Source: Marinobacter sp. DY40_1A1
Lineage (GTDB): Bacteria; Pseudomonadota; Gammaproteobacteria; Pseudomonadales; Oleiphilaceae
Assembly (NCBI RefSeq): GCF_016597815.1
Contig: NZ_VCHA01000002.1
Span: forward strand, 1-64,000
Length of the DNA stretch: 64,000 bases
Reading direction: 5' to 3'
Every line of letters starts with the position of its first letter. Within the stretch, counting starts at the first letter, position 1. Below are positions 11,050 to 58,240 of the stretch, piece by piece. The position numbers were made by a program, and so were the translations under genes. Under the pieces are notes generated by a model. That model was given only the letters and a program-made list of their open reading frames with translations, had not been told where the DNA came from and made no database searches.

Positions 11050-11098
11050 CGCCACCCTGCGTTTCCAGCTCCGTATATACGCTTATCAAACCCGTGCT

Positions 11099-11129
11099 AC
11101 ACCCGCCAGACTTAGCGTCTGGCGGGTGT
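11099..11129 (+). terminator. 13-bp perfect stem-loop after trhP
   Basis: ACACCCGCCAGAC (11099-11111) and GTCTGGCGGGTGT (11117-11129) form a perfect 13-bp stem with a TTAGC loop, 50 bases after the trhP stop. There is no U-tract, so it is either a factor-dependent terminator or an mRNA 3'-end protector. Confidence 0.55.
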
Positions 11130-11160
11130 ATTACGATATACTTGATCATCCTTACATTTA

Positions 11161-45919: not shown

Positions 45920-47128
45920 TTATTGATCAAGCAGCTCTATCCAGTGCTGCACCGGCACTTGGGCTTTGGTCTCAAGGTGCATTTGGCAACCTACGTTGGC
46001 CGTTACAATGCAGTCAGGGTTATCCACCGTCAGTGCTTTGAGCTTATTGCCCAGCAGTTTCTGGCTTAGTTCTGGCTGCAACACCGAATAGGTACCGGCA
46101 GAACCACAGCATAAGTGCTTGTCTTTGGTGATGGCCAAGCTGATGCCTGCCTTGGTAAGCACCTGCTCCACAACACCGCTCTGCTTCATAGCGTGCTGAA
46201 GTGTGCAGGGGCAATGAAAGGCAACTTTGCCAGAGGTGTTCTGCACCTTGAGGCTTTCGAGGTCCTGTTCTAGCAAAAATGCACCAAGGTCGGTGCATAG
46301 CTCGCTGACCTTGGCGGCTTTAGCTGCGTAAACCGGGTCGTTTCTTAACAAGTGCCCGTAGTCCTGCACCATGGCGCCACAACCTGAGGCGGTCATAATC
46401 AGCGCTTCTGCGCCGGATTCGATGGCTGGCCACCAGGCATCGATGTTCTGGCGCATGCGCTCCAAGCCCTTCTCGTGCTCTGAGAGGTGGTAGTTCACCG
46501 CGCCACAGCATCCGGCTTCCGGGGCTTCAACCATGGTGATGCCGAGCTTGTCCAGCACTCGAGCGGCAGCGACGTTAGTGTTCGGTGTTGCAGATGGCTG
46601 TACACAGCCCGCCAGCGCCAAAACTATTCTGTTGTGGCTTGCGGCGGGCCAGGGGCTGGCCTGTTTTTTCGGGGGTACTTTGGCTCGCAGTTTGGCGGGC
46701 AGTATTGGGGCGAAGGTTTGCCCGAGTTTCAGCAGGTATCCAAACAGCACCCGGTTGGGGACTACTCGCGCGAGCGCCCAGCGCATCCACTTTTCTTTCG
46801 GGGGGCGTGGCAGTTCTTTATCAATAAGGTCGCGGCTGATATCCAGAAGGCGACCGTACTTAACGCCCGAGGGGCAGGTGGTTTCGCAGCTGCGGCAGGT
46901 TAGGCAGCGGTCGAGGTGTTCACGGGTTTTTTCGGTAACTTCGGCGCCTTCGAGGAACATTTTCATGAGGTAGATGCGGCCTCGGGGGCCGTCGCGCTCG
47001 TCGTTCAATTCCTGGTAGGTGGGGCATGTTGCGGTGCAGAATCCGCAGTGGACGCAAGCCCGCAGTATGGCTTCTGCTTCCTGTCCTTCTGTTGTGTTGG
47101 CGAACTGTTGGACTAAATTTGTTTGCAT
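45920..47128 (-). CDS. glcF: Glycolate oxidase iron-sulfur subunit GlcF
   Basis: A 402-residue subunit that carries electrons from the GlcD flavin to the membrane quinone pool. Two 4Fe-4S ferredoxin motifs lie near the N-terminus (CVHCGFCTATCP around residue 27 and CLTCRSCETTCP around 75), and two CCG domains follow with EAGCCGAVNYHLSEHE and HLCCGSAGTY. It is separated from glcE by 161 bases containing a large structured repeat, unlike the tight spacing elsewhere in this operon. Confidence 0.95.
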   Translation of the reverse strand: MQTNLVQQFANTTEGQEAEAILRACVHCGFCTATCPTYQELNDERDGPRGRIYLMKMFLEGAEVTEKTREHLDRCLTCRSCETTCPSGVKYGRLLDISRDLIDKELPRPPKEKWMRWALARVVPNRVLFGYLLKLGQTFAPILPAKLRAKVPPKKQASPWPAASHNRIVLALAGCVQPSATPNTNVAAARVLDKLGITMVEAPEAGCCGAVNYHLSEHEKGLERMRQNIDAWWPAIESGAEALIMTASGCGAMVQDYGHLLRNDPVYAAKAAKVSELCTDLGAFLLEQDLESLKVQNTSGKVAFHCPCTLQHAMKQSGVVEQVLTKAGISLAITKDKHLCCGSAGTYSVLQPELSQKLLGNKLKALTVDNPDCIVTANVGCQMHLETKAQVPVQHWIELLDQ

Positions 47129-47165
47129 ATCGTGCCTGCTAAAGCTTCAAAATCGGTGGTGTCGC

Positions 47166-47268
47166 GATGAGGCGGATAACTCTCTGAAACACGCTGTGAA
47201 TACTTCCCTGTACGCTTGGCTACGCCATCCATGGCTTCGCACAGTTTCAGAGAGTTATCCGCCCCATC
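47166..47268. repeat. Structured repeat, copy A (CATCCATG-loop element)
   Basis: Perfectly complementary 20-bp arms (47171-47190, 47244-47263), extended to 25 bp with one mismatch (47166-47190, 47244-47268), enclose a 53-base core. The core contains GCCATCCATGGCTTC (47224-47238), itself a small hairpin with CC at the turn. By hand alignment about 40 of 54 core positions agree with copy B at 58136-58189, while the arms of the two copies are unrelated. It sits between glcE and glcF and would form a long stem in the polycistronic mRNA. No encoded protein. Confidence 0.8.
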
Positions 47269-47289
47269 GCTGTTCTGACTTTGGCGAAT

Positions 47290-48357
47290 CTACATCCAGC
47301 TATATAACCTGCCCGGGTTAAATATTCCGTCGGGATCAAATGAGTTCTTCACCCGCTGCTGAATCCTTTTAAGCGCATCAGGCTGGCTGTGCATCACTTC
47401 ACCACTTCTGTCGCCACCCCGGAACAGGCCTACCTGCCCGCCAGCGACGCGAGCCAATGGTTCCATATCGCTCAGCTGTCCCGTACCCCGGAACCAGCGC
47501 TGGGAGCCTGCCCAGTCTATGAACCAGTCGCCTTCGATGGCGGGGTTCGCAGCAGTGGAGTTAACGGAGAATCGCCATAGCGCTTCGTCGCTTCCGGTGA
47601 AGAAGTCGTGCTGCATGTCTTGTACTAAGCGCCAGAATTCTGCGCCTGCTTCCATTACCTCACCACTCCACTTTTCTGCGGTGGCTTCTACGGCTGTTTT
47701 GGCTCCGGAGAGGCGTAGATAGACTTTGCCGTCTACCCAGCAGGCGGCTGTGATGGGTTTGGGTTCGGCTGAGCGGCTGTTCATGTAGTGGAGGACTTCG
47801 TCCATGCCCACTTCCTGCACTAAGGTCATGCTAGCGGCGGGGCTGGGCATTACTTTCAGGCTGATTTCAGTGATGAGCCCCAAGGTGCCTAAAGCTCCGG
47901 CTTGAAGTCGGGAGACATCATAGCCGGCGACGTTTTTCATCACTTCGCCGCCAAACCGCAAATGCTCGCCTTTGCCGTTAATCAGGCGAATGCCCAGAAC
48001 TTGATCTCGGACCGATCCAGTCCAGGGTCTGGCTGGGCCAGACAGGTTGCAGGCGAGTGTGCCACCAATGGTGGATTCTGGGCCAAAGTGAGGGGGTTCA
48101 AAGTGGAGCGCTTGGCCTTGTTCGGCCAGCACCGCTTCAATGTCAGCCAGGGGCGTGCCTGCACGTACGGTCATTACCAACTCTACGGGATGGTAATCCA
48201 CTATGCCTGTGTGCTCGCTCACGTTGAGGGTGCCGGCATCTGCACTGGGCTCCCGGCCGATGAAGGCTTTGGTGTTGCCGCCCACTATGTTGAGCTTCTC
48301 CCCGCCAGCGCGGGCCTGGAGCACTTGCTCCTGCAGTTGTTGAGAGATATCAGCCAT
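47290..48357 (-). CDS. glcE: Glycolate oxidase FAD-binding subunit GlcE
   Basis: A 355-residue FAD-dependent subunit related to GlcD but shorter. The FAD-binding PCMH domain shows VGGNTKAFIG, STIGGTLACNLSGPARPW and GGEVMKNVAGYDVSRLQAGALGTLG-type segments, and the C-terminus has FDPDGIFNPGRLY. The GlcDEF complex oxidises glycolate to glyoxylate. Its start overlaps the glcD stop by eight bases. Confidence 0.95.
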   Translation of the reverse strand: MADISQQLQEQVLQARAGGEKLNIVGGNTKAFIGREPSADAGTLNVSEHTGIVDYHPVELVMTVRAGTPLADIEAVLAEQGQALHFEPPHFGPESTIGGTLACNLSGPARPWTGSVRDQVLGIRLINGKGEHLRFGGEVMKNVAGYDVSRLQAGALGTLGLITEISLKVMPSPAASMTLVQEVGMDEVLHYMNSRSAEPKPITAACWVDGKVYLRLSGAKTAVEATAEKWSGEVMEAGAEFWRLVQDMQHDFFTGSDEALWRFSVNSTAANPAIEGDWFIDWAGSQRWFRGTGQLSDMEPLARVAGGQVGLFRGGDRSGEVMHSQPDALKRIQQRVKNSFDPDGIFNPGRLYSWM

Positions 48358-58071: not shown

Positions 58072-58107
58072 TCAATGATTAAAAGCACCGCCTGAAACAA
58101 TGTGCCA

Positions 58108-58217
58108 GGGCAGGTGGTTACGCTCCTTCCGGGAGACGCTACGAGCACATCCATGTGGGCTTGACTGAAGCCATCCATGGCTTCAGACACTCCCGGAAGG
58201 AGCGTAACCGCCCGCCC
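58108..58217. repeat. Structured repeat, copy B (CATCCATG-loop element)
   Basis: Arms of 28 bases (58108-58135 and 58190-58217) pair except for one A-C mismatch and one G-U pair. The core (58136-58189) forms two further hairpins, both with CC at the turn: CACAT-CC-ATGTG (58146-58157) and GAAGCCAT-CC-ATGGCTTC (58167-58184). The core is related to that of copy A at 47191-47243; the arms are not. It lies between the second permease gene and astE. No encoded protein. Confidence 0.85.
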
Positions 58218-58240
58218 TCCGAGCTCTTCGGGGAGCCTTC

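Follow-up and report, generated by a model that had tools for sequence, protein, structure and literature searches.

A dispersed hairpin repeat of Marinobacter whose GGA strand is predicted to work as an RNA with two CsrA-type loops

The hairpin found between glcE and glcF in Marinobacter sp. DY40_1A1 is one copy of a dispersed repeat in which one strand, here called the GGA strand, is predicted to work as an RNA that presents two CsrA-type ANGGAN loops, i.e., as a CsrA-binding module. On the sequence evidence below, this is the reading to which we incline, and the inclination is kept slight mainly because some of the copies have no evident transcript. The general kind is already known as a candidate RNA (TwoAYGGAY); what is new is a high-copy repeat in Marinobacter, which is present or absent at orthologous sites and has a stem of free sequence. 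A dispersed bacterial repeat is tied here to a candidate RNA family, and both a selected strand and a candidate protein can be named. In the open-access literature, judged on titles and the openings of abstracts, no published description of the Marinobacter repeat was found.

The glcE-glcF hairpin and its family

The window, i.e., the whole stretch of DNA that was analysed (64,000 nucleotides), contains two copies of the repeat, which are the first two of the eight inverted repeats listed in it. The features are as follows.

45920..47128, minus strand: glcF, 402 aa (NCBIfam NF008434 GlcF, 653.7 bits, over the cut-off)
47129..47289, minus strand: glcE-glcF intergenic region, filled by the hairpin; short in some other species
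47164-47270: hairpin in the glcE-glcF gap, 27-nt arms with 26 paired, 53-nt core
47164..47190, minus strand: left arm, the 3' arm of the GGA-strand hairpin, 26/27 paired with 47244-47270
47191..47243, minus strand: 53-nt conserved core with two hairpins
47201..47212, minus strand: second hairpin of the glc copy, UACAGGGAAGUA, whose ACA and GGA match the CsrA SELEX consensus
47224..47235, minus strand: AUGGAU hexaloop hairpin, C-G closed, GCCAUGGAUGGC
47244..47270, minus strand: right arm, the 5' arm of the GGA-strand hairpin
47290..48357, minus strand: glcE, 355 aa (NCBIfam NF008439 GlcE, 480.6 bits, over the cut-off)
58107..58218, minus strand: second copy, 29-nt arms and 54-nt core, GGA strand antisense to both flanking genes (an amino-acid-type ABC permease and an astE-like succinylglutamate desuccinylase)
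58146..58157, minus strand: CACAUGGAUGUG hairpin of the second copy
58170..58181, minus strand: GCCAUGGAUGGC hairpin of the second copy

An earlier, sequence-only reading had described the glc copy as 25-bp arms with one mismatch around a 53-base core, at 47166-47268; the hairpin and its core stand, and the limits proved to be 2 nt short on each side, as the arms are in fact 27 nt long (96% complementary, 53 nt apart). In the second copy, the arms (58107-58135 and 58190-58218) are 29 nt long, 93% complementary, and 54 nt apart. That reading had also held the two cores to be alike, at about 40 of 54 positions, and the arms to be unrelated, with which the comparison agrees, given that 41 aligned positions of the cores are identical (53 vs 54 nt, one gap), including GCCATCCATGGCTTC, and that the similarity of the arms stays at the level of shuffled sequence (489 of 2000 shuffles score equally well). 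A further inverted repeat, of 19 bp with a 5-nt loop, lies at 11093-11135.

The dispersed family that had been proposed was recovered in the host genome with further copies and complementary arms: the exact 12-mer core GCCATCCATGGC occurs 28 times, the reversed pattern not once, and all 28 cores lie between complementary arms of 21-33 nt, although only 23/28 positions are paired in one of them (L003) and the arms of another (L006) were taken in a different register. Folding of the hairpins gave z-scores of -8.3 to -11.6, with 0/200 shuffles equally stable, which, together with the copy counts and the paired arms, rules out a chance hairpin.

An alignment (A1) was built from 168 candidates with distinct cores, of which 60 were drawn at random and 58 aligned, the two copies left out having a 63-nt core and the wrong register, respectively. 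The covariance model derived from it (R1) scored the glc copy, absent from the 58 sequences, at 99.8 bits and the second copy, which is among them, at 94.0 bits, and found no further convincing copy in the window, where the third match had an E-value of 1.2. The search of the host and its relatives with such a model, which the sequence-only reading had suggested, returned 67 copies in the host, 3 to at least 112 in each of the 24 Marinobacter genomes (host included), and 28, 39, and 15 in three genera of the order outside Marinobacter; the remaining nine genomes searched had none. Exact cores numbered 3 to 68 in all 25 Marinobacter genomes scanned (0 to 4 in the reversed control), and an exact 25-mer core was present in at least 116 stretches of public genomes, the 80 that are named among the matches listed being all from Marinobacter. 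Searches of plasmids, and of viral contigs with one exact pattern, led nowhere.

In A1, 96.8% of all cells are paired, compared with 66.5% in shuffles and at most 47.7% when the arms are slid. In the long stem, 98.3% of the cells are paired and there is variation on both sides of every one of the 24 pairs, with both-side changes in 538 cells vs 143 in shuffles, so that the supposed combination of a conserved core and covarying arms, unlike REP elements, is borne out by the core counts and the covariation. The GCC/GGC hairpin, which carries the AUGGAU loop, has three stem pairs that are invariant in the 58 copies, in part because this sequence served as the search key for most loci. The other small helix is paired in 85.7% of cells, covaries at two pairs (U-A/C-G and A-U/C-G), and fails at its outer pair in 25/57 copies.

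The selected strand and its two loops

Imperfect pairs in the arms indicate which strand is selected. Among 6144 arm pairs from 218 copies, 238 cells are non-Watson-Crick, of which 152 would be G-U wobbles in a folded GGA strand, 16 would be so in the other strand, and 70 are neither (152 vs 16, binomial p 5e-29). A subset of 160 copies, which excludes loci L029-L120 and still holds some orthologs, gave 103 vs 9, with 41 neither, and two single loci gave similar counts, 18 vs 0 at glcEF (21 copies) and 15 vs 1 at the astE-like locus (23 copies). Classified by gene context, where a plus sign marks a gene that reads the CCA strand, the ratios are 52:3 (--), 36:4 (+-), 28:4 (++), and 16:0 (-+), and in the 160-copy subset the count is 21 vs 2 where both neighbours run antisense to the GGA strand. 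As the bias is the same in each main gene context, and in the ++ class is opposite to what selection on sense mRNA would lead one to expect, it belongs to the element rather than to the transcription of its neighbours. In other genera, five elements passing a strict loop pattern gave 11 vs 2 (8 neither), and in 19 copies from three other genera the bias recurred weakly, at 9 vs 2 (p 0.065) with 19 neither.

Given that the wobbles fall mostly on the GGA strand whatever the direction of the flanking genes, selection would act on that strand folded alone. A function as cruciform DNA is set aside, since the hairpins of both strands would then be present and no bias would be expected. The simplest reading is that the selected form is an RNA of the GGA strand, although a single-stranded DNA of this strand would give an equal bias; we infer RNA rather than single-stranded DNA.

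The core of the GGA strand forms a junction with GCCANGGANGGC and ACANGGANGU, and exposes two ANGGAN hexaloops, 23-25 nt apart, which is the CsrA/RsmA motif. A scan of the 1.49 Mb of retrieved DNA that required nothing but paired arms yielded 293 hairpins. Of these, 272 have two CANGGANG together on a single strand (with a distance of 23-25 nt in 271), ten have one, and 11 have none; in the control, 98 of 20000 random 55-mers (loci L121 on) had two. Because the first loop was the search key by which most loci were retrieved, this evidence is less biased for the second loop and for the spacing. The second loop varies at its two N positions, and its ACA, GGA, and G are nearly fixed; in the glc copy it reads AGGGAA, and so fits ANGGAN and not strictly AYGGAY. 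According to PMC7652899, SELEX gave RUACARGGAUGU as the consensus for CsrA, in which ACA and GGA are invariant; most ligands had six-base loops, and RsmE binds an ANGGAN hexaloop. The Marinobacter hairpins carry such hexaloops, in pairs, as do CsrA-binding RNAs, and CsrA itself was found in 36/36 relatives searched. From this likeness of motif, CsrA may be taken as the partner, and one CsrA (RsmA) dimer would likely bind the two loops at the tip of the 27-bp stem.

The best Rfam match of the glc copy is TwoAYGGAY (RF01731), on the same strand, with 28 bits against a cut-off of 43, and for this reason the copy is called a relative and not a member of that family. The host genome has 35 matches to RF01731 up to E 10, one of them above the cut-off (47.7). 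TwoAYGGAY has the Rfam type Cis-reg, has been proposed as a CsrA binder (PMC4333381), and, in a table of PMC2864571, is rated probable as an RNA, with human gut, gamma-proteobacteria, and Clostridiales as its sources and an n in the next two columns. It exceeds the cut-off in 13/274 gamma-proteobacterial genomes, seven of which have at least 6-9 matches each (nine candidates per genome were scored), and folded examples from six of these mostly show two small hairpins on an outer stem. The Marinobacter family shares with TwoAYGGAY an outer stem that closes a junction, two hairpins with AYGGAY-type loops on the same strand, and a multi-copy state in some gamma-proteobacterial genomes; it differs in its nearly perfect stem, the sequence of which is largely free.

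The presentation of GGA motifs for CsrA is also a feature of the CsrB/RsmZ-type sRNAs, including Aln1a-c of Alteromonas, which PMC5864184 describes as CsrA-sequestering sRNAs of a marine gamma-proteobacterium. In contrast, the Marinobacter element has two sites per copy, lies at dozens of dispersed loci, and shows no visible promoter. CsrB-type sponges hold far more sites than this. A bolder extension, which we put forward only tentatively, is that the CsrA-binding module has spread as a repeat, so that up to about a hundred hairpins would form one distributed CsrA sponge, titrating the protein together and placing neighbouring genes under CsrA, with template switching keeping the stems perfect while their sequence runs free. 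If CsrA does bind, a repeat family would be the means by which the genus influences a global regulator.

Orthologous sites and the question of mobility

At the glcE-glcF junction, the 30 orthologous sites compared comprise 20 with one copy, three with two (an inverted pair), six unfilled, and one scar-like, a distribution in which filled sites are over-represented, as these were the best 30 of 119 genomes with a match. In the six unfilled junctions, the glcF ATG and the glcE stop span 17-34 nt, both codons included, i.e., 11-28 nt between the genes, which upholds the earlier suggestion that the copy separates glcE from glcF in an otherwise tight operon. The scar-like junction keeps 72 nt, in which nothing but the outer flanks of a filled site can be recognised, and in lower-scoring genomes glcE and glcF can align with few bases between them (e.g., 2 in G102). 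The 58107 site, for which 19 of the 30 loci were compared (plus strand only), is filled at 17/19 junctions, the other two having 53 nt and 17 nt. Copies are inherited, given that variants of the core particular to one locus recur among related species, above all at 58107; the core type also changes, as at glcEF, with cores of 53, 54, and 57 nt, and between L016 and L093. A possible decayed copy was seen at L094, the ortholog of L017 in G082, where part of the core and the right arm are kept and the left half is unaligned.

Since the genes lie close together where the copy is absent, its insertion likely ends the translational coupling of glcE and glcF. The copy lies in the glc operon in sense orientation, i.e., the glc mRNA is the GGA strand, and the start region of glcF is left free because the hairpin ends 35 nt before its ATG. 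The element would then uncouple glcF from glcE and might place the glcF mRNA under CsrA or RNase III. Should the copy also tune glcF by mRNA processing, protection, or attenuation, as the earlier reading had suggested, this or any other effect on glcF would be a local one rather than what the family as a whole is for, as every orientation shows the same strand-specific wobble bias.

The presence of filled, unfilled, and scar-like sites is also what a mobile single-stranded DNA hairpin would leave, in which the GGA strand would be the substrate of a transposase and the structure would be kept for mobility. This alternative, which we consider unlikely, gains from the many copies in near-random orientation and from the arrangement of copies less than 400 bp apart, in which the GGA strands point outward in 24/24 Marinobacter pairs (some orthologous to each other), as well as in 15/15 close pairs counted by hand in two other families. 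When the host (G000) is compared with G082, the orientation of orthologous elements agrees in nine cases and is opposite in three; these three would fit re-insertion, or a pair from which each genome had lost another member. On the other hand, copies at one site across many species still keep the core and the pairing, no clear target-site duplication of the kind expected of a MITE was seen by eye at orthologous junctions (at most a 2-bp CT between filled L067 and unfilled L079), and no preference for a replichore strand was found in G077 (15+/13- and 17+/15-, by a hand count with the origin assumed at base 1). No Y1 (RAYT-type) transposase was found in the host or in eleven of the 24 other congeners searched; exact core matches number 37-53 in seven of the eleven.

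Three opposite-orientation loci were inspected, from the 20 entries covered out of 68, which amount to 34 unordered pairs (14 of them not belonging to the glcEF set): at L012/L111, L020/L105, and L021/L099, the same intergenic region of two close species holds the element and its outer motifs in opposite orientation. A simple inversion of the core is rejected there, because inspection by eye shows the outer motifs reversed along with it.

REP, BIME, and REPIN elements resemble the Marinobacter repeat in being intergenic, dispersed, and found in close inverted pairs. They differ in that their hairpin is conserved including the stem, whereas in the Marinobacter repeat it is the core that is conserved and the stem sequence is largely free. 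A REP driven at present by a RAYT is rejected, as no Y1 transposase was found in the host. One congener (G004) has 22 matches to the Y1 transposase and only 7 copies by R1. A REP-like palindrome around GTAGGTCGGATTAGCGAAGCGTAATCCGAC was observed within the spacers of element pairs at L193, L217, L220, and L236, in a variant form in L193.

Gene context and changes in the arms

Mapped against the genes, as had also been suggested, the copies occur in all orientations to their neighbours. For 160 copies, with our own ORF caller, both neighbours read the GGA strand at 45, neither at 35, the genes are convergent at 42 and divergent at 20, and 18 are of other types; the orientation of copies to genes is near random. 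The main weakness of the reading as a CsrA-binding RNA lies here, given that neither neighbour reads the GGA strand at 35/160 copies, which leaves at least 35 without an evident source of GGA RNA, yet with the same wobble bias. A crude promoter score over 217 copies gave no signal for the GGA strand, its mean being 4.565 upstream of this strand and 4.565 upstream of the other (4.204 in a downstream control).

The single copies lie at medians of 22-38 nt past stop codons, a position that would suit an mRNA 3'-end element acting from either strand, like REP (a terminator, an exonuclease barrier, or an RNase III site). Convergent sites exceed divergent ones (42 vs 20) and the stem is longer than 20 bp, as such an element would have it. 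Even so, we judge this explanation improbable, given that the bias should follow the transcribed strand, whereas the ++ copies have 28 vs 4 wobbles in favour of the strand that neither neighbour reads, and that the loops would be left unexplained.

The arms themselves change in a coordinated way. In 43 disjoint ortholog pairs, there are 208 two-sided and 43 one-sided arm changes, the two-sided count being somewhat inflated by unequal arm lengths, as positions were compared from the inner end; in 12/43 pairs there is no two-sided change. Among the swaps from one Watson-Crick pair to another, 111/198 are transversions, for which no passage through G-U is possible, and the counts of both-arm changes are far from Poisson in the divergence of the flanks (chi-square 228.8, 42 df). 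The clearest case is L023/L107, in which the two cores do not differ, the near flanks hardly do, and nine positions of the arms hold seven two-sided changes. Such both-arm changes between orthologs fit template-switch replication, a mechanism that PMC8794818 proposes for changes of this kind in RNA hairpins, and in which a change in one arm would be copied into its partner. Some of the both-arm block changes may also stem from short tracts of recombination between species.

Taken to its limit, this mechanism would keep the pairing by quasipalindrome correction alone, and the hairpin would have no function. The two-sided changes, the transversions, the non-Poisson counts, and L023/L107 all agree with it, but it predicts no strand preference of the wobbles, against the 152 vs 16 observed, which argues against it as the sole force, and it would not conserve the core, in which only 66 changes occur in 1998 positions (37 ortholog pairs with equal core length). 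As a complete explanation it is therefore very improbable. For the predicted CsrA-binding RNA, template switching would be a means by which the stem stays paired, and the 67 copies in one genome are natural replicates, which offer a test bed for compensatory evolution vs template switching. The copying of arms from other copies of the family was rejected, as the paralogs of G000 and G082 have no excess of arm words of at least 7 over column shuffles; those of G000 have a slight excess of words of 5-6.

A second long-hairpin repeat, of the GGGAAAAAGAACTCGCT...GACACCTTTTTCCC type, with 44-45 nt between its arms, was met in Marinobacter contigs in the structure-only scan, at L127 (~2280), L133 (~7683), L193 (~659 and ~1988), L197 (~3175), and L211 (~6147).
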